DNA of 39,480 nt, taken from positions 1 to 39,480 of the forward strand of contig NZ_BIXY01000066.1 in assembly GCF_008326305.1 (NCBI RefSeq), written 5' to 3'. Below, one piece after another: positions 24,642 to 39,336 of the stretch. The notes beneath the pieces were generated by a model. That model was given only the letters and a program-made list of their open reading frames with translations, had not been told where the DNA came from and made no database searches. Positions within the stretch are counted from its first letter, which is position 1. Every line of letters begins with the position of its first letter. This DNA comes from Dictyobacter arantiisoli (GTDB taxonomy: Bacteria > Chloroflexota > Ktedonobacteria > Ktedonobacterales > Ktedonobacteraceae). A program made the position numbers and the translations under genes.

Positions 24642-25040
24642 CTATCCTCTATTCACTTTCAACAATTTGGCTTTGAAGCATATGGCGTAGAGAGCTATGC
24701 CACAGACAAACCAGAGCACGAGTCCTAACAGCAAAGAGACAGTTCCCGCCATCACGCCCAGCGTGACGCTGACAAATATTGCCGTCAGGACAAATGAGAT
24801 CGCGCCAATGATGCCTCCACGCGCATCTGCTTCAGCATCATGCTTCCCATCCTGGCGACGAATAATGGTCAGGCTCGCCAGCAGGATTGCGGGAAAGGCG
24901 GTAAAAATTCCTCCGATGCGGGGATTGATCCAATGGCCGATAAGGGCCGCGATGACCGAAATAATTCCTCCAAAGAGGAAGCGAATGGCGTAATCTTTCC
25001 ATTGAATATGTCTTAACTGTGAAAAATCAACCTTCCACAT
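24642..25040 (-). CDS. DUF3147 family membrane protein
   Basis: A 132-residue membrane protein with four predicted helices and the DUF3147-typical loop NPRIGGIFTAFPAILLASLTI (~43-63). The family is related to GlpM and has no established biochemical role. ATG 25040 has GGAGGAG upstream; the frame is open 22 codons earlier without support. It is the second of two adjacent DUF3147 genes (gap 93 bases), which may assemble as a two-subunit membrane unit. A cytoplasmic His/Asp/Glu-rich loop (RRQDGKHDAEADARG) separates the two halves. Confidence 0.8.
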   Translation of the reverse strand: MWKVDFSQLRHIQWKDYAIRFLFGGIISVIAALIGHWINPRIGGIFTAFPAILLASLTIIRRQDGKHDAEADARGGIIGAISFVLTAIFVSVTLGVMAGTVSLLLGLVLWFVCGIALYAICFKAKLLKVNRG

Positions 25041-25133
25041 AGCATGCTCCTCCAAATTTGCACAACCAGGAACCATGGCACAGCACATCCTGTATGATCC
25101 TGGCAAGGTCCTACTGCTCGCTATTCAGTCAGA

Positions 25134-25484
25134 TTACCAGCCCAGCATGAAACGTAGGACAGCAAAGGTGCCAAATGCCACCACAAACCAGCCAGCCAGT
25201 GATCCCATTAAGCCAGGGAAAAGCTTATAGCGCTTGATGGCTGGTGTTGCTACGAGACAATAAAAAATCATGCCGACCGCGCCCGCAATAGCCCCTTGCG
25301 CGGTAAGAGTCGCATGGGCCGCGCCTTTCGTACAGAGCGTAATCACCAATCCCGCCATGAAGACAGAAGGGGCCGCAGAAAAAAAGCCGCCAAATTGCTT
25401 CGGCTGGCAGATCTGGGATATCAGCGCAAAAATACAGACGAGAAGACCGCCGGCAAGAAACCTGGCAAGATACTCCAATAGCAT
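25134..25484 (-). CDS. DUF3147 family membrane protein (paralogue)
   Basis: A 116-residue membrane protein with about four helices and the same loop as its neighbour (QPKQFGGFFSAAPSVFMAGL). I chose ATG 25484, preceded by TTGGAG at a 6-base spacing, over TTG 25496. The two DUF3147 genes are about equal in size but clearly diverged, so the duplication is old. Probable operon with the gene at 24642. Function unknown. Confidence 0.75.
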   Translation of the reverse strand: MLLEYLARFLAGGLLVCIFALISQICQPKQFGGFFSAAPSVFMAGLVITLCTKGAAHATLTAQGAIAGAVGMIFYCLVATPAIKRYKLFPGLMGSLAGWFVVAFGTFAVLRFMLGW

Positions 25485-25947
25485 ACGTGGCTCCAATCCA
25501 TCGCTTCAAAAACATACGCTGCAACACAAAACACCTCAATCCATCTTTTTTCATGCCGCGTTCAAATTCCTGCCAGTCTGTTCACTCTATGCCATAAGGA
25601 TAGGTCGTAGGAGGCGTAAAAGAGTTCGTTCCTCTAATCTTATAGGTCCAGCGGCAAAACATGACGGGTCTTCATATGGAGAAGCGCTATATTTTGTACG
25701 GACCAGCGAAATGACTGGATGCAAATAGTATCAACATGTTAACAAGCTGAACATCTGGCAGTGGGATTGCGGGCCAGGAAGATGCATCAGACACAGCAAA
25801 GGAAGAGTGAGATTCCCCTATTGCTCCTATTTTGTGCCCTGTCTCAGGCTATAAATGAACCTTTTATGCATGCTCATACGTGCCTCAAGAAGACAACTAG
25901 CAATAGACGCCAGGGGATAAATTGCGCCTATGTACAGGGAACGATAT
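25485..25947. other. Divergent intergenic region
   Basis: 460 bases between DUF3147 (minus) and the lipoprotein operon (plus). It must hold both promoters; no convincing boxes or repeats were found. Open frames here are antisense shadows or lack family resemblance. Confidence 0.5.
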
Positions 25948-26412
25948 ATGATCCAAATTACAGGACTATCAGTAGTTCAAACGACAACGCCTCAGCATCA
26001 CAAACCTTCAAGGTATACCCATCTAGTGGTTCTCCTTCCATTGTGCGCGCTGCTACTGATCACAACCGGCTGCCAGTTCAAGCAATCTGCCTTTGCACTG
26101 ATGGCAGGCAATACCGGTTCAAGCTTTGCAGCCGCCGCCATGACGTTGGACTATGCGCATAAGGGGAGTGTAACCGCCACCTATGCCAGATCCGCGTTTC
26201 AGAGCTATCAGAGCCAGTTGCAAAATGTCGATCAACAGTTATCAGCCCGGGCTGGTGCCCCCGACAACCGAACGATCCAGGAATTATTAAAGCTCTATCA
26301 GCCTGCTATGCAGGCCATTAATCATCCCTGCCTGGAGGCTGCCTGTCACTGGCAGGCGCAAATTACAGCGCTAAACCAGGCCAGTCAGGCCTTTCTGAAG
26401 GCGGGTGAATAA
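25948..26412 (+). CDS. Small lipoprotein, first gene of the Nramp/PRC operon
   Basis: A 154-residue protein with a lipoprotein signal: basic N-region, hydrophobic LVVLLPLCALLLITT, then lipobox ITTGC with lipidation Cys42. The mature part is ~110 residues, mainly helical (YARSAFQSYQSQLQNVDQQL; HPCLEAACHWQAQITALNQ), with two later Cys that could pair. I recognise no family. AGGGA seven bases before ATG 25948 made me choose it over ATG 25930. Its stop overlaps the Nramp-like ATG by one base (TAATG), so it is translationally coupled. A role outside the membrane in helping the transporter is inferred from coupling only. Confidence 0.7.
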   Translation: MIQITGLSVVQTTTPQHHKPSRYTHLVVLLPLCALLLITTGCQFKQSAFALMAGNTGSSFAAAAMTLDYAHKGSVTATYARSAFQSYQSQLQNVDQQLSARAGAPDNRTIQELLKLYQPAMQAINHPCLEAACHWQAQITALNQASQAFLKAGE

Positions 26413-27635
26413 TGAAGAAATGGCTCTCGATAACACTTGGGATTGTCACCGCCATCGGAGGATTTCTGGATGCCGGGACGATTGCGACCTCTGGTGAAGC
26501 GGGGGCAAAGTTCGGCCTGGGCTTGATCTGGGCAATTCTGCTGGCGACAGTGATGGCGATTCTGCTGGTTGAGATGGTTGGTCGCTTCACGGCGGTCTCC
26601 CAGAAGCCCTATGCCGCTGCGATCCGTGAGGAATTGGGCTTCCGCTTTTATCTCTTTCCGCTGATCAGTGAAATCATTGCCGAGGGACTACTGTTAACGG
26701 CGGAATTGGGTGGTATGGCGATTGCTCTCTCGCTCGTCACAGGCCTCTCCTGGCACATCCTCTTCCCCGTGGCCGTAGTGATTGTGTTCTTGATGGCATG
26801 GCGGGCACCCTTTGATTGGATTGAGAATGGCCCGGCCATCTTCGGCATGCTCATGTTAGCGTTTCTGGTGGGCGTCTTTGTGATGGGCGGCCCATCCCAG
26901 GAAACCGTGCAGACCCTCTGGAAGCCGGTGATCAAGCCAGGTGAGCTAGCTGACTATTTCTATCTTGTCGCGGCCATCCTTGGAGCCACGATCAGTCCCT
27001 ACCTGCTCTACTTCTATTCGTCAGGCACACGCGAGGAAGGATGGTCCGGCAAGTCGCTCTTGCTCAATCGTATTACGGCCTTCGCCGGTATGGGCTTTGG
27101 AAGCCTGGGCTCAATCACGATTGTGATCATGTCCGCGATTGTCTTGCAGCCACAGAATATACAGGCGAGCACGCTGGGTGAGATTGGTCTGACACTGGCA
27201 ACCCCCTTTGGCAAAATAGGATCGCTTATCTTTGCCTGTATCCTCTTTGTGACCTGTCTTGGCGCGGCGCTAGAGTGTGTGCTGGCGCTCTCTTATAACG
27301 TAGCGCAGGGCTTCGGTTGGCCGTGGGGAGAAAACAAGAAACCGGTTGAGGCGGCCCATTTCAACCTGATCCTCGTACTGTTTCTGGTCATCGCCTTGCT
27401 CATCAATCTTATCGGTATTGAGCCCTTGCAGCTGGCACTTTTTGCCTCAACTATTATCGCCCTGTTTCTGCCCCTTTCATTACTACCATTTTTGATCATC
27501 ATGAACAATCGACAATATCTAGGCGACAAAATCAATAAGCCCTGGCTCAACATCCTTGTGCTGCTGATTCTCTTGATTGCGTTTGTCGTCTCGATCACAG
27601 CTATTCCGCTTGAGCTCCTGAGCGGTGGAGGATAA
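26412..27635 (+). CDS. Divergent Nramp-family metal ion transporter
   Basis: A 407-residue membrane protein with about 11 helices, divalent-cation Nramp (MntH-like) family. The first-helix DPGN motif reads D20-A-G-T; Asp, a metal ligand, is kept. The helix-6 MPH motif reads I194-S-P-Y, so both Met and His are lost. Loss of the helix-6 Met is known in Nramp-related magnesium transporters, so Mg2+ (or Mn2+) is more plausible than Fe2+; this is inference. It starts on the stop of the lipoprotein gene and is followed after 3 bases by a PRC-like gene, so lipoprotein, transporter and two PRC proteins form one operon. Confidence 0.85.
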   Translation: MKKWLSITLGIVTAIGGFLDAGTIATSGEAGAKFGLGLIWAILLATVMAILLVEMVGRFTAVSQKPYAAAIREELGFRFYLFPLISEIIAEGLLLTAELGGMAIALSLVTGLSWHILFPVAVVIVFLMAWRAPFDWIENGPAIFGMLMLAFLVGVFVMGGPSQETVQTLWKPVIKPGELADYFYLVAAILGATISPYLLYFYSSGTREEGWSGKSLLLNRITAFAGMGFGSLGSITIVIMSAIVLQPQNIQASTLGEIGLTLATPFGKIGSLIFACILFVTCLGAALECVLALSYNVAQGFGWPWGENKKPVEAAHFNLILVLFLVIALLINLIGIEPLQLALFASTIIALFLPLSLLPFLIIMNNRQYLGDKINKPWLNILVLLILLIAFVVSITAIPLELLSGGG

Positions 27636-27638
27636 ACG

Positions 27639-28007
27639 ATGAACGCCAACAACGATGATATTTTCTCTATCGCGGACATTATTGATTCGCAACTGGAAAG
27701 TAGTGATCGGCAGAATGTCGGTCGGGTCGCTGATATTGAGGCTGAGTGGCGGGAAGACGGAACCCTTGTCTTATGTCATCTTGTCACCGGCCCGCAAGCA
27801 CTATCAGGTCGGATCGCCAGGCCACTGCGTTCATTGGCGCAACGCCTCCTGCATGATCGCTTTGAATACAGCATCCCATTGAGTGATGTAGAAAAATTTG
27901 GGCCAACCCTGAGATTACGCCGGAAGGCCAGAGATTATCCAGTAGGGCGTTCCGAGCGCTGGATCGCCGAGCATATTCTACGCTGGATACCAGGAAGTGG
28001 ATATTGA
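27639..28007 (+). CDS. PRC-barrel-like cytosolic protein 1
   Basis: A 122-residue soluble protein with a barrel-type pattern: VGRVADIEAEWREDGTLVLCHLVTGP (~27-52), then SIPLSDVEKFGPTLRLRRK (~78-96). This is the form of PRC-barrel domains (a strand with VGRV..I, hydrophobic strand, closing IP...I). The C-terminal ~25 residues are basic/aromatic (RSERWIAEHILRWIPG). It begins 4 bases after the Nramp-like stop and overlaps the next PRC gene by 4 bases. PRC barrels are small regulatory or sensory modules, known for example in MgtE-associated proteins. A regulatory role on the Nramp-like pore is inferred from the operon and from the fused version at 37.6 kb. Confidence 0.65.
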   Translation: MNANNDDIFSIADIIDSQLESSDRQNVGRVADIEAEWREDGTLVLCHLVTGPQALSGRIARPLRSLAQRLLHDRFEYSIPLSDVEKFGPTLRLRRKARDYPVGRSERWIAEHILRWIPGSGY

Positions 28008-28297
28008 TGAAACAGCATACAAACAAGATTTTTCTCGGTGATCTTATGGGCTGTAAGATCGTCACCGCCGAAGGCAAGGTCCTGGGGCATATTCATGATG
28101 TCGAAATTAGCGCAGGGCCAGAGTATCAGGTCACAGCCCTGCTCTATGGTCGAGGTGGCCTTGAAAATCATCTCCATATGCTCAATCCATTCCGAGGCGA
28201 ACAGCAGCCACCAGCCAGGCCCAAAAGCATTCCCTGGCGTAAAATTGCCTCTATTGAGCAGCATACCGTGCGCTTGCGAGCAAGTAAGGACGACTAA
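28004..28297 (+). CDS. PRC-barrel domain protein 2
   Basis: A 97-residue protein, nearly all PRC-barrel: FLGDLMGCKIVTAEGKVLGHIHDVEI (~9-34), YQVTALLYGRGGL, and the closing IPWRKIASIEQHTVRLR (~75-91). A Pro-rich loop (EQQPPARPKS) interrupts the barrel. Its ATG overlaps the previous stop by 4 bases, so it is the last gene of the transporter operon. As above, regulation or assembly of the Nramp-like transporter is the best hypothesis. No membrane segment or signal. Confidence 0.8.
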   Translation: MMKQHTNKIFLGDLMGCKIVTAEGKVLGHIHDVEISAGPEYQVTALLYGRGGLENHLHMLNPFRGEQQPPARPKSIPWRKIASIEQHTVRLRASKDD

Positions 28298-29755: not shown

Positions 29756-30373
29756 TCAACTATTCGAATGCAAAGCAGCCAGCAAGTGGTGCCGGGCCTC
29801 AGCCTCAGTTTGGGCTTGAGCAATCTGAAACAATGCAGTATTTAATACATCCTCAGTGAACGTTTTTTGGGAAAACTCTTCCACCAACGGTAAGAGCATC
29901 GGAAAACGACGCTTCACAAAATACCGCAACGGCTTCAACATCCCTCTTTGTTCCCCGATTTGTTCCCCTTTTTGTTCCCCGATTGCAATGCCTTTTTGTT
30001 CCCCGATTGCGATGCCTTTTTGTTCCCCGATTGCGATGCCTTTTTGTTCCCCGATTTGCTTCCCGATTGCAATGCCTTTCTCCTCGGCGCGTTCGCGAAG
30101 TCGGCGAAAGGTCCAGCTATCCTCTAAAAGATCTTCAAGCATGGCAAACCTCCGGTCCAACCAATCTTTATCGGTCTGGTCGTGAAATGTGAGTCCCGAT
30201 ATCCCATAGAGTAGAGAGAGTAGTTCTCTGCTCTGCCGGTCGGGATCGCCTTTTGAAAGTACATGTATCGCCTCATCGACCACATCCAGATGCGCCCCAT
30301 CACGGGTCATTGGTATCAGTGGAAGGAGTCCTTTGAGATGTTTTGAAAGATTTCTGCGGTTGGCAGTTCCCAT
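29756..30373 (-). CDS. Rpn-type nuclease, C-terminal part after frameshift
   Basis: A 205-residue frame; the genuine part begins near residue 14 (GLLPLIPMTRDGAHLDVVDEAI), which normally follows the nuclease domain encoded by the next frame upstream. The part before that is out-of-frame overlap. Residues ~100-140 carry 8-residue repeats GIAIGEQK from 24-bp DNA repeats; such Gly/Lys/Glu repeat linkers are usual in this family. The C-terminal ~60 residues (LKPLRYFVKRRFPMLLPLVEEF) are helical. With 30316-30756 it makes one gene broken by a -1 shift near 30330-30340. Confidence 0.7.
   Translation of the reverse strand: MGTANRRNLSKHLKGLLPLIPMTRDGAHLDVVDEAIHVLSKGDPDRQSRELLSLLYGISGLTFHDQTDKDWLDRRFAMLEDLLEDSWTFRRLRERAEEKGIAIGKQIGEQKGIAIGEQKGIAIGEQKGIAIGEQKGEQIGEQRGMLKPLRYFVKRRFPMLLPLVEEFSQKTFTEDVLNTALFQIAQAQTEAEARHHLLAALHSNS
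29972..30043 (-). repeat. 24-bp tandem repeats in the Rpn-type gene
   Basis: Three units of a 24-bp repeat (29972-29995, 29996-30019, 30020-30043), partial units on both sides. The unit is a multiple of three and encodes GIAIGEQK, so copy number can change without shifting the frame. Confidence 0.8.
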
Positions 30374-30756
30374 AGTTTAATGATATCAAACTCAAATCGC
30401 CCTACCTCTCTTCCATCAACATTATATAGTATATACGGTGAACTGAGCGCGATGGGCTCTTTTTTGAGAAAGATAACAACAGAATGAACCGGACATTGGT
30501 ATTTCCCACGCGCCAGGATGTTGTATTCCTGCAAGCGGTGCCCCATCGTCTCGTCGCGACGGGTTTGGAACTCGATATGCAGGATCATGCGAGATCCATT
30601 GCTACGTACTGCATATAAGCAGTCGGCGTTGCGTGTGACCTGGAACTGGGGAGAAAGTTCTTTTTCGATGATCGCGCCATCGATCAGCCAGGTGGCATAG
30701 TCTTGCGCGGCATAGCTAATTAATTGTTTGAAATAGTTGTCCCACTGACCCGGCAT
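30316..30756 (-). CDS. Rpn/PD-(D/E)XK nuclease-family protein, N-terminal part (frameshifted)
   Basis: A 146-residue frame carrying the PD-(D/E)XK nuclease core of the recombination-promoting nuclease (Rpn)/'transposase-like' family: RNADCLYAV with D45, then HIEFQT with E62 and Q64, followed by HRLQEYN and VHSVVIFL. After FDIIKLWELPTAEIF the family usually continues into a GLLPL..L segment. Here it ends 15 residues later at a stop while the continuation is in another frame (29756-30373). The gene is either a pseudogene with one lost base or uses a -1 shift. Whole-gene length would be ~320 residues. Confidence 0.75.
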   Translation of the reverse strand: MPGQWDNYFKQLISYAAQDYATWLIDGAIIEKELSPQFQVTRNADCLYAVRSNGSRMILHIEFQTRRDETMGHRLQEYNILARGKYQCPVHSVVIFLKKEPIALSSPYILYNVDGREVGRFEFDIIKLWELPTAEIFQNISKDSFH

Positions 30757-31285: not shown

Positions 31286-32632
31286 TCAGCCCAGTAATTG
31301 GATGCCAAAAAAGGAGCATACTTGCACGGCCACTGAGAGGATGGCGAGCAGGCTTACGATGATGGTCAATGTATATGCTAACGCGTTGAAAATAGGCCCA
31401 TTGGTATATGTGCCCATCAGACGTTTGTTATTGACCAGCCATAAGACGGAAAACAGGATCACCGGAAGCACGATACCATTGAGCAGGTAGAGGTTGAGCA
31501 GTACCTGGACCACTGGCAAATTCGGTAGCATCGCCACCACCACGCCGATGATGATCAAGGCGGTAAACAGGCCCCAGAAAACAGGTGCCTCCTTCCAGCT
31601 TTTGCTGACCCCATTCTCCAATCCCAGCGTTTCTGTAATGGAGTAGCAGGTTGAAAGTGGCAAGACTCCGGCTGCCAGGAAGGATGCACCCAGCAAGCCT
31701 ATAGCAAACACGGTACTCGCGAAATGGCCCAGAAAAGGGGCTAGCGCCAGAGCGGCATCCGCCGCATCCTTCAATACCACTCCTTTGCCTCCGCTATGCA
31801 CAAATAACGTGGCGGCACAGGCGATGATAATGACACCAGCCACCAGATTGGAAAAGATGGCCGCGCTATAGACATCAATGCGCTCATGCCCATACTCGCG
31901 CATATTGACGCCGCGCTCGACGACAGCACTTTGAATGTAGATTTGCATATACGGACTAATTGTCGTGCCGACTGCTGTTACCAGCATAAATAGATAGGCG
32001 CTATTGAATTGAATCGTTGGCACCACTGATCCAATCGCAACCTGTCCCCAGGCAGGCTTTGCCAAAAAGGCTGCGATAAAGTAGGCAAAAAAGACCAGTG
32101 TTAAGGCCAGAAAGATCTTTTCTACGCGTGCATATGATCCTTTAACGACCAACCACCATAAGAGGAAACCCGCCACGGGGGCGCTAATCCAGGGGGGAAC
32201 ATTGAAGATTCTCAGAGCAGCAACGATACCAATAAATTCTGAAATAATGACGCCGCTATTGGCAAGCAAAAAGGATAACATGACCAGAGCCGTGACTCGT
32301 AATGGAAAATTCTCTCGAATAAGGTCAGATAGACCTTTCCCGGTCACCGCGCCCATACGGGAACACATCTCCTGCACAATCGCCATACCCAGGGTCAATA
32401 CCACCATTACCCACAACATCGAATAACCAAATTGCGCACCCATACTACTATAGGTATAGATACCGCCCGCGTCATTGCCCGCGCTGGCGGCGACCAATCC
32501 GGGTCCCAGCACACTCAGGGGAAGCAACCAGGAAGCACGCCGGCGCTTCCTGGTATGCGAGAGTGAACCCTTGCCAATATCCTTCTGAACAGAAGCTAGC
32601 GCCCCTGTATCGTTGCGAAAATCTTTCCTCAT
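31286..32632 (-). CDS. Divergent Nramp-family transporter (stand-alone)
   Basis: A 448-residue membrane protein with ~11 helices after a basic N-terminus (HTRKRRRASW). First-helix motif is GNDAGGIYTYSSMGAQFG (DPGN replaced by D-A-G-G); helix 6 reads VGTTISPYMQIYIQS (MPH replaced by S-P-Y). It is therefore the same divergent Nramp type as the other two here, but closer in motif to Nramp-related proteins annotated as divalent cation transporters in actinobacteria. I chose ATG 32632, with GAGGG five bases upstream, over upstream ATGs. It has no PRC neighbour. Ion unknown; Mg2+/Mn2+ is plausible. Confidence 0.85.
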   Translation of the reverse strand: MRKDFRNDTGALASVQKDIGKGSLSHTRKRRRASWLLPLSVLGPGLVAASAGNDAGGIYTYSSMGAQFGYSMLWVMVVLTLGMAIVQEMCSRMGAVTGKGLSDLIRENFPLRVTALVMLSFLLANSGVIISEFIGIVAALRIFNVPPWISAPVAGFLLWWLVVKGSYARVEKIFLALTLVFFAYFIAAFLAKPAWGQVAIGSVVPTIQFNSAYLFMLVTAVGTTISPYMQIYIQSAVVERGVNMREYGHERIDVYSAAIFSNLVAGVIIIACAATLFVHSGGKGVVLKDAADAALALAPFLGHFASTVFAIGLLGASFLAAGVLPLSTCYSITETLGLENGVSKSWKEAPVFWGLFTALIIIGVVVAMLPNLPVVQVLLNLYLLNGIVLPVILFSVLWLVNNKRLMGTYTNGPIFNALAYTLTIIVSLLAILSVAVQVCSFFGIQLLG

Positions 32633-33149
32633 ATCAACCCTCATATATTCTGTCTGTGAACCCGCCCCGCTGCTCAGCAAAACGGCCACAGTGATAGGAT
32701 AGGTAAAGTGGATGCTAGTTCCCCGGGACACATCAAAAGACATCCCGAGCACAGCATAATGCACATACGTATAAAAAAGTCAGCAGAGCTGCAATGAGCA
32801 AGCAGAGTGAGGATGTCACTTCCAATTTCATGCAGGAAACTACATCAAGGGGTGCAAAAGGGATATCTCATGCTGCTCACGTGTCTATATAGGTGAGGGG
32901 AGCAAGCGAGCAGTGAGTGGAAGAATGCAGAACCAGTCAAGAGGAACCATCAACAAACCACTCACTACCGGGCAAGTTCCCCGGTAGTGTAGACGCCTTC
33001 ATCAGAAGGATGACTACGACCAGCGTCCATTCGGTTCCTCACTTTCGTCTCATATTTGGCCGGAAGAGGCGAACATCAGATGCAACTTCGTGCATAGTAT
33101 AGTCAAGAGGACCAGGAAAAGTCAAGCAAAAGCCAGAATTTGCCCGGGC
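32633..33149. other. Intergenic region with one hairpin
   Basis: About 515 bases upstream of the Nramp-like gene. A perfect 10-bp-arm hairpin (CACTACCGGG / CCCGGTAGTG, 32963-32972 and 32980-32989, loop CAAGTTC) may end the DUF6582 transcript, though no T-tract follows. I saw no M-box, yybP-ykoY or MntR-like pattern, and no gene. Confidence 0.5.
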
Positions 33150-33438: not shown

Positions 33439-33609
33439 AGTGTTTGATTCCCACTCCCAGCGGGATCTTGCTGTTTGACCTGCTGGCAGGCGCTTGCGCG
33501 CCTGCGCCCTTTTTATTGTGTGATGTAGAAAAGGTTCTTCGAACCTTTTCTACATCACACAATAAAAATCTTTTTGAGCACCATTGGTGCGAAAACTCAT
33601 GCACAGAGA
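33439..33609 (+). repeat. Multi-hairpin repeat, copy B
   Basis: The most complete copy. After the head shared with the 24.6-kb copy it carries CAGGCGC-TTGC-GCGCCTG (33487-33504), a perfect 28-bp-arm palindrome (33510-33537 / 33541-33568, loop TTC), then GCACC-ATT-GGTGC, and GTGCGAAAACTCATGCAC. Four stem-loops in ~170 bp, no coding frame. It lies directly upstream of DUF6582 on the opposite strand. Copy A is at 14924-15072. Confidence 0.8.
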
Positions 33610-37635: not shown

Positions 37636-39336
37636 ATGTCGATAGAGAATGATCCAAAGGGATTAGATGCGCTCGAAACAGGCATGCGCGTCGAGACGCC
37701 GGATAAGGACCTTGGAGAAACAGATGTCAGTCAACCCAGGGTAAAGGAAGTTATCAGGGATCGAGAGGGCGCGGTCGCAAAGATTATCATTCAAAAAGGG
37801 GCCATCTTCAAAAAGGAGTTGGAGGTGCCAGCAGATCGTATTCAGGAGATCATTACACCTGATACATTGCATCAAGCGGGCCAGGTGGTTCTCGATATAA
37901 ATGAACAAGAAGCGGATGCGTTAAATGTGCACGGTATTGAAGAAATTGAGGATGAACAGACGCATCAAGATTCTTTGCTTGAGGATTCAGAAAAAAATAT
38001 CCCGACCACTGAAGGCATTCGCGCAATGGAGGCGTACTCATCACTAGAGGAACATGAAGAGCAGGAAGAAGGGGCTGAGAGCCAGCAAAATGCATCTGCC
38101 GAATCACAAAAATCTTCCTCGTGGTTGAGATTGATTGGGCCTGGTTTTATCTCTGGGATGGCTGGCAATGATTCATCCGCCGTCGCCTCTTATTCGGTCG
38201 ATGGCGCTCAGGTTGGGCTGGGTCACCTCTGGCTCCTGCTCTTATCCACTCCGCTCTATCAAGCCGTGCAGTACTCCTGTGCCAAAGTTGGGCGCATCAC
38301 CCAAAAAGGCTTCGCGGAAGTCCTGCGCGAGAATTATGGTCGTTCTGGTGCAAGCCTGGCTTCACTGGCCCTGATTATCGCGAATGTGGCCCTGATTACA
38401 GCTGATCTCGTAGCTATCGGTAGCGGCTTCCAACTCCTGACCACTATGAGCTGGGTCTGGTTTACAGTTCCCATTGCCGTGATCCTCTGGTATCTAACGG
38501 TCTTTAGCAATTTTGACAAGCTCAAGAAGGTTTTCATCGTGATGAGCCTGGCTTTTATTGTCTATATCGTAACAGACATCCTGGCTCGACCAGACTGGAT
38601 CGCAATCCTGACGAGTACCGTGGTTCCACATATCGATATGACCTACGCCAGTATCAGTAGTGCTGTCGCATTGCTGGGTGCCACCATCTCACCCTATAAT
38701 ATCTTCTGGCAGGTACAGGGTGAGAAAGAAGAACGTCGTCAGGGCACCTTGAAGCAGAAGCTACGCACAGCCGCATTAGATGTTGGGATCGGCGTTGTCA
38801 GCGGAAATATGGTAGCTTACTTCATCATTATCTGTACCGCAACCACCCTCTATACCCATCACAAAGCAATTACTACAGCAGCGGATGCCGCCATAGCGCT
38901 GGTGAGCGTCTTAGGTCCAGTGGCGAAATATCTGTTTGCCATTGGCTTGATTGGCTCAGGCTTAGTAGCCATTCCAGTACTGCTTGCCAGCACCTCCTAT
39001 GCAGTCGCAGGCACATTTGGCTGGCCGTCAGGGCTTTCCAAAAAACCCTGGCAAAGTGAGGGCTTCTATCTGATCCTCACGGGAGCATTGGTCCTCAGCC
39101 TGTTCCTGGCGCTGCTTCATTTAGACCCCATCCAGCTCATCTTATGGGCGAATATCATTTCTGGCATTCTGGCTCCAGTCCTGATCGTATATCTGATCCT
39201 GGTTGGCAATAATCGCAAGATTATGAAGAAGCAAGGCTTTAGCTGGCTATTGAATATCTGCCTGGGCACCACCTTCGTAATCATGGTAGCAGCAGCAATC
39301 CTCTTCTTCTATAGCCTCGCAACCGGACGATCATAG
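37636..39336 (+). CDS. PRC-barrel-like domain fused to divergent Nramp-family transporter
   Basis: A 566-residue protein. Residues ~15-97 are a PRC-barrel/DUF2171-like domain (GMRVETPDKDLGE; VAKIIIQKGAIFKKELEVPA; QVVLDINEQEA). An acidic, probably disordered linker (~100-160, EEHEEQEEGAESQ) follows. Residues ~163-560 are an Nramp-like membrane domain with ~11 helices: GNDSSAVASYS in helix 1 (D179, DPGN replaced by D-S-S-A), and LLGATISPYNIFWQVQ in helix 6 (MPH replaced by S-P-Y). It is probably a cytosol-gated metal transporter; ion unknown. AAGGA before ATG 37636 fixes the start. It is the fused counterpart of the 25.9-28.3 kb operon. Confidence 0.88.
   Translation: MSIENDPKGLDALETGMRVETPDKDLGETDVSQPRVKEVIRDREGAVAKIIIQKGAIFKKELEVPADRIQEIITPDTLHQAGQVVLDINEQEADALNVHGIEEIEDEQTHQDSLLEDSEKNIPTTEGIRAMEAYSSLEEHEEQEEGAESQQNASAESQKSSSWLRLIGPGFISGMAGNDSSAVASYSVDGAQVGLGHLWLLLLSTPLYQAVQYSCAKVGRITQKGFAEVLRENYGRSGASLASLALIIANVALITADLVAIGSGFQLLTTMSWVWFTVPIAVILWYLTVFSNFDKLKKVFIVMSLAFIVYIVTDILARPDWIAILTSTVVPHIDMTYASISSAVALLGATISPYNIFWQVQGEKEERRQGTLKQKLRTAALDVGIGVVSGNMVAYFIIICTATTLYTHHKAITTAADAAIALVSVLGPVAKYLFAIGLIGSGLVAIPVLLASTSYAVAGTFGWPSGLSKKPWQSEGFYLILTGALVLSLFLALLHLDPIQLILWANIISGILAPVLIVYLILVGNNRKIMKKQGFSWLLNICLGTTFVIMVAAAILFFYSLATGRS

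Follow-up and report, generated by a model that had tools for sequence, protein, structure and literature searches.

In this study, we found that a divergent Nramp-family carrier of Dictyobacter arantiisoli is encoded in a compact four-gene operon, in which the genes for a putative lipoprotein, the Nramp carrier, a PRC-like protein and a PRC-barrel protein follow one another on the forward strand. We consider it reasonably probable that this unit forms a multi-component transporter of divalent cations. In the mechanism that we propose, the transported ion would be a divalent cation, most likely Mg2+ or Mn2+. The two PRC-barrel proteins probably form a pair, which would be located on the cytosolic side of the carrier and set its activity or stability, as the N and CBS domains of MgtE do on MgtE, while the lipoprotein would be an external partner on the outside of the membrane. 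The physical complex, the gating or regulation, the substrate and the role of the lipoprotein are what we infer for this operon; the gene coupling, the family assignments and the repeated occurrence of PRC domains on other transporters are laid out below.

Table 1. Coordinates of the operon and of the other Nramp genes in the window.
Feature	Position	Strand	Remarks
Putative lipoprotein	25948..26412	+	154 aa; alternative in-frame ATG at 25930
Nramp-family (PF01566) transporter	26412..27635	+	407 aa
PRC-like protein	27639..28007	+	122 aa
PRC-barrel protein	28007..28297	+	96 aa
Third Nramp-family transporter	31286..32764	-	NRMT-like motif DxxG-TxxS
Fused PRC-like/Nramp ORF	37636..39336	+	566 aa; Nramp domain from residue 183
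Fusion N-terminal part: PRC-like barrel (about residues 15-100) and acidic linker	37636..38130	+	
Fusion Nramp part	38131..39336	+	PF01566 E 1.4e-70

The operon lies in the window, by which we mean the whole stretch of 39,480 nucleotides that was analyzed (Table 1). The D. arantiisoli genome is a draft (7.2 Mb in 256 contigs) with four Nramp genes, three of them inside the window; the one on the reverse strand went unmentioned in the preliminary description. The gene order and spacings given there agree with our reading. The lipoprotein and Nramp genes overlap by 1 base (TAATG), the PRC-like gene starts at a spacing of +3 bases from the Nramp gene, and the two PRC genes overlap by 1 base when counted from the ATG (TGATG) or by 4 bases if an upstream TTG is the start, which the earlier spacing of -4 presumed. 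Directly upstream of the operon, and divergently oriented, lie two adjoining genes for small DUF3147 membrane proteins (24642-25496, reverse strand). Two overlapping ORFs at 29756-30756 on the reverse strand, with in-frame GEQKGIAI repeats, resemble what we take to be a frame-split Rpn/PD-(D/E)XK transposase. A near-perfect 29-base inverted repeat at 33509-33569, which forms a hairpin on both strands and has A/T-rich ends, is possibly a bidirectional terminator. Low-E Rfam matches at 33503-33582 were rejected as chance, being miRNA models that catch this strong hairpin, and a scan for promoters and terminators gave a number of sites not above that expected from shuffling.

Conservation of the neighborhood in relatives had been named beforehand as one of the checks on which the preliminary description could fail, and the neighborhood is retained. 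Orthologs of the operon Nramp occur in 4 of 29 genomes of the family besides D. arantiisoli (58-70% identity), including Ktedonosporobacter rubrisoli and Thermosporothrix hazakensis, and all four keep the four-gene order while their flanking genes vary. In a sample of 400 Chloroflexota genomes, 16 encode a Nramp of the operon clade, and in 14 of these the PRC-like and PRC genes lie directly 3′ of it; the upstream lipoprotein gene is also present in 8 of the 14 (G000, G002, G012, G017, G025, G039, G083 and G290). One of the two exceptions, G112, has its locus cut by a contig end. The other, G135, carries a divergent clade member with no PRC gene adjoining, which counts against a multi-component transporter. 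The G135 Nramp (L139/L143) has the helix-6 methionine, and a one-helix, secreted-looking protein is encoded upstream of it. At locus L078 (G039, contig C204), the operon Nramp ORF is broken by a frame shift in a draft assembly, through either sequencing error or decay.

Outside Chloroflexota, frequency was counted on plasmid records only, of which 72,556 were searched. The operon Nramp retrieved full-length relatives in rhizobia, and a rhizobial PRC-like protein, used as the query, matched 22 records (16 from Rhizobium, 3 from Mesorhizobium and the others from Paraburkholderia, Caballeronia and Chroococcidiopsis). The PRC-like gene lies directly behind the matching Nramp in every one of them, at a distance of about 8 bases or less in 21 records and about 53 bases in Chroococcidiopsis. 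The four-gene order was also found on a Streptomyces plasmid. Eight plasmid records that have intact small genes and that we read gene by gene (L150-L152, L158, L159 and L161-L163) contain the upstream lipoprotein-like gene and both PRC genes. Profile E-values in the plasmid operons are 1e-130 or better for the complete Nramp, about 1e-24 or better for the PRC-like protein and 5e-10 or better for the PRC protein; the lipoprotein match is weak. A transposase-type insertion splits the Nramp on the Chroococcidiopsis plasmid, and both the Nramp and PRC-like frames are broken on the Paraburkholderia sabiae plasmid. The module ranges over at least five phyla or classes (Chloroflexota, Alpha- and Betaproteobacteria, Cyanobacteriota and Actinomycetota), and the four-gene coupling is far beyond chance. 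The genes might nonetheless be co-transcribed for shared regulation, for instance under stress, with products that do not act on each other, since direct interaction is something that we infer. However, the genes adjoin in all 22 plasmid records and in 14 of the 16 Chloroflexota genomes, across five phyla or classes and with varying flanks, which renders this explanation highly improbable.

Pfam gave no match above the cut-off for the first and third genes of the window operon (lipoprotein and PRC-like). The last gene matches PF05239 (E 9.1e-8, 32.4 bits against a cut-off of 21.2), which identifies its product as a PRC barrel, and its profile matches 1pm3 (MTH1895) and the archaeal PRC-barrel chains 8qzo/8onw. 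When the PRC-like family (A7) was compared with the PRC family (A8, an alignment that left out the L038 protein, which was read by eye), hhalign returned a probability of 98.8 and an E-value of 1.2e-16. PF05239 is matched by 7 of 14 relatives of the PRC-like protein (best 5e-6), and the relative in L083 scores 26.9 against the cut-off of 21.2. The AlphaFold model of the PRC-like protein (pLDDT 81.5) has 1pm3, CdpB1/CdpB2, the A. fulgidus PRC1-PRC2 heterodimer and reaction-centre subunit H as its top PDB matches, at a probability of 1.00 but with a best E-value of only 1.7e-3. Both the family profile and the predicted fold identify the PRC-like protein as a PRC barrel. The earlier proposal that both small proteins are PRC barrels, another point on which the preliminary description could have failed, therefore stands, through PF05239 for the fourth gene and through hhalign and fold for the third. 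Matches of the PRC-like profile to PDB sequences (PIT54, lectin) look like chance. The C-terminal tail of the PRC-like protein, modeled at lower confidence, carries a conserved W...IPGS motif and may be a docking peptide.

The N terminus of Nramp structures is cytosolic. We consider the PRC proteins to be cytosolic because they are soluble, with no hydrophobic segment in either, and because the PRC-like domain is N-terminal in the fusion. In genome G083, the two PRC genes are joined in one ORF, which points to direct pairing of the two proteins. The close fold match to the archaeal CdpB1-CdpB2 heterodimer (8qzo/8onw), in which two different PRC proteins pair as proposed for the operon, also counts for this pairing. 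Alternatively, the PRC pair could be a soluble chaperone or buffer to which the carrier hands over the imported metal ion, with no part in gating. Strict gene coupling would fit any partner needed in step with the carrier, and the authors of the NrmT study offered chaperoning as an alternative for their MgtE-like fragment (PMC4072509). However, Gly, Val, Asp, Pro and Trp make up most of the best-conserved columns in the PRC families, the family alignments contain no conserved Cys, His or acidic cluster resembling a metal site, and the PRC fusions to Nramps and MgtE better fit a membrane-attached role. We thus regard a chaperone as unlikely and favor a pair that would act on the carrier.

The Nramp family, including Slc11/MntH, has a LeuT-type fold. 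The operon Nramp matches PF01566 with an E-value of 2e-53 (182 bits against a cut-off of 29.8) over profile positions 1-355 of 357, and canonical Slc11/MntH proteins (DraNramp, ScaDMT and EcoDMT) belong to the same Pfam family. Its metal site reads DxxT in helix 1 (DAGT) and AxxS in helix 6 (ATIS), in contrast to the DxxN and A/CxxM of canonical Slc11 proteins and to the DxxG-TxxA/T that defines the NRMTs (PMC8806188). The fusion Nramp has DxxA-AxxS and the canonical gene on contig C31 has DxxN-AxxM. In the operon Nramps of Proteobacteria (L150-L152 and L161-L163), Glu replaces the otherwise conserved helix-1 metal-site Asp. Carriers with the DxxN-A/CxxM site discriminate strongly against alkaline-earth ions (PMC8806188); the operon Nramp therefore likely has another substrate than Mn/Fe, or one in addition to them. 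Mg2+ is not certain to be that substrate, because an NRMT-clade protein with an MgtE-N partner transported Mn2+ better than Mg2+ (PMC4072509).

We placed the carrier in a tree of 89 Nramp sequences, whose long branches call for caution. The operon Nramps form one clade (14 rows, support 100/100), the canonical Nramps form their own clade (100/100) and the fusion Nramps fall in a clade separate from that of the operon. Nramps partnered with PRC-MgtE_N proteins fall in the EleNRMT group, whereas the 14-member operon clade lies outside the group formed by EleNRMT and the fusion clade (support 99/95, on long branches). The closest solved structure to the operon Nramp is that of EleNRMT (7qia), at 108.8 bits compared with 67 for DraNramp. 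The helix-6 methionine is missing from every PRC-partnered Nramp in the tree, and no canonical Nramp among the rows examined has a PRC partner, unlike the operon Nramp; DraNramp and the C31 gene stood outside the neighbor-script scoring. By motif and tree position, the operon carrier belongs neither with the canonical Mn/Fe importers nor with the NRMTs. The Slc11 "orphan outgroup" comprises PF01566 proteins that fall outside Slc11 and NRMT (PMC9606685, PMC10606218), as the operon clade also appears to do; the parts of these two papers that we consulted mention no partner genes for this outgroup.

The lipoprotein has a single hydrophobic segment at residues 26-44 by hydropathy, with Cys42 at the lipobox position, the arrangement of a putative bacterial lipoprotein. 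The lipobox Cys is invariant across the family alignment (A5), and the residue at -3 fits the consensus in some orthologs only. The 112-residue domain that follows Cys42 looks all-helical and contains a Cys pair (PCLxxxC) found in most relatives. Orthologs at loci L035-L038 are 39-53% identical, more relatives occur at L078-L080, and no Pfam or PDB family was matched. The Chloroflexota and plasmid-operon lipoproteins show only weak similarity to each other (hhalign 39%, E 3e-4), which counts against the multi-component transporter, and the lipoprotein does not appear to be obligatory, since it is absent or unrecognised at six Chloroflexota loci that retain the PRC pair. Five of these six loci (L081, L082, L085, L086 and L089) encode, 3′ of the second PRC gene, a conserved protein of 64-98 aa that has a single hydrophobic helix and a tail resembling RPxTxxYDRLG...NPDYHxNPGE; no Pfam family was matched in the two members scanned. 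This small protein seems to stand in for the lipoprotein as the fourth gene.

PRC domains meet Nramps in three ways: in the four-gene operon, as an N-terminal fusion, and in a PRC-PRC-MgtE_N-CBS protein encoded beside the Nramp. The third arrangement directly adjoins an NRMT-like Nramp in Chloroflexota, and related CBS proteins lie beside Nramps on plasmids of Alicyclobacillus, Leifsonia, Citrobacter, Cellulomonas and Mycolicibacterium, as seen by tblastn and annotation. Additionally, D. arantiisoli encodes a full-length MgtE with an N-terminal PRC domain (L146:10585-12534, contig C39) and a free-standing PRC-MgtE_N-CBS protein (L148:3950-5272, contig C35) behind a CTP-synthase-like gene, which is not beside any Nramp. 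In MgtE, the MgtE_N and CBS domains serve Mg2+ sensing and gating. Like the operon, the PRC-bearing MgtE combines a divalent-cation transporter with PRC barrels on its cytosolic side; however, MgtE is an unrelated channel with its MgtE_N and CBS sensor domains in one chain. The three separate arrangements strengthen the preliminary view of PRC barrels as cytosolic-side associates of Nramps. That description also treated PRC/CBS proteins of magnesium transport as known, which the literature searched did not bear out, whereas the PRC-MgtE_N-CBS architecture is plain in the sequences. The recurrence of PRC domains on MgtE and Nramp and the fused pair of G083 together speak for a PRC-PRC unit that acts on the carrier. 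It could be argued instead that the PRC proteins and the lipoprotein serve to assemble, localise or scaffold the carrier and take no part in sensing, as the closest folds (reaction-centre subunit H, CdvA and CdpB1/B2) are structural, membrane-associated proteins. Subunit H shares the PRC-barrel fold with the operon proteins, but it belongs to photosynthesis, and CdpB1-CdpB2 to cell division, with no transporter involved. Against a structural role, the PRC-PRC-MgtE_N-CBS proteins attach a PRC pair to the sensing and gating domains known from MgtE. We therefore judge a purely structural role quite unlikely, compared with a PRC pair that would set carrier activity or stability.

The fused ORF, 9 kb from the operon, and the acidic linker pointed out in the preliminary description are real; the linker has 19 D/E against 4 K/R over 70 residues and is of low confidence in the AlphaFold model. 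The N-domain is modeled with a pLDDT of about 80-90 across residues 31-90, and its top PDB matches are CdvA and reaction-centre subunit H (probability 0.93-1.00, E 7e-3 at best). Among the 13 copies examined within the family, PF05239 is matched in 1 (5.7e-4) and a short bPH_2 stretch in 12, and the comparison with PRC family A8 by hhalign was not significant. The domain is thus PRC-like mainly by predicted fold; sequence support is thin, and the bPH_2 stretch competes. A search of the phylum found the N-domain only within the same taxonomic order, apart from two weak matches, and almost always as part of an open frame that spans 550-690 aa. Matches of the fusion-N profile at L048 and L103 were discarded as artefacts, as these over-extended ORFs belonged to the training set. 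The ORF had been described as a fused form of the operon, which we reject on the tree and the domain comparison: its Nramp falls in a separate clade and its N-domain has no recognisable sequence kinship with the operon PRC proteins. The third Nramp of the window has close relatives in G014-G016 and G018, and the G018 relative lies 27 bases behind a PRC-MgtE_N-CBS gene.

Our literature search, with subscription papers outside its scope, returned no paper joining PRC-barrel proteins with Nramp or MgtE, which suggests that the four-gene unit is undescribed in the literature searched. Among published systems, the closest is NrmT, which has an MgtE-N-domain gene next to it and was proposed to be under feedback regulation (PMC4072509). 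Both systems combine a PF01566 carrier that lacks the metal-site methionine with an operonic cytosolic accessory. However, the accessory of NrmT is an MgtE-N domain, whereas that of the operon is a PRC pair without MgtE_N or CBS, usually together with a lipoprotein. Some NRMT members have an M-box upstream, whereas no M-box or Mn riboswitch matched at the Rfam gathering score in the window and the four ortholog loci. Co-expression of MgtE-N did not improve Mg2+ rescue, and NrmT worked without its partner (PMC4072509), a result that we count against a multi-component transporter. Nramp-family carriers with cytosolic accessories were already known; what is new relative to NrmT is another carrier clade, other accessories and the added lipoprotein.

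In its widest form, our proposal is that this is the first multi-subunit Nramp-family system, with an orphan carrier, neither Slc11 nor NRMT, placed between an external lipoprotein and a cytosolic heterodimeric PRC-barrel gate throughout the lineages listed above, and that PRC barrels serve divalent-cation transporters in general, both Nramp and MgtE, as a regulatory module; we put this forward tentatively, as a possibility that we hold at somewhat less than even chances. PRC barrels are common and mostly without an assigned function, and little functional context exists for Nramp relatives other than the Mn/Fe importers. A module that links the two in several phyla, culturable rhizobia among them, opens both to direct testing. 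It would also improve annotation, since the small proteins are often labeled hypothetical proteins and the carriers just Nramp divalent metal transporters. If true, the proposal would show soluble subunits controlling a secondary carrier of the Nramp fold.
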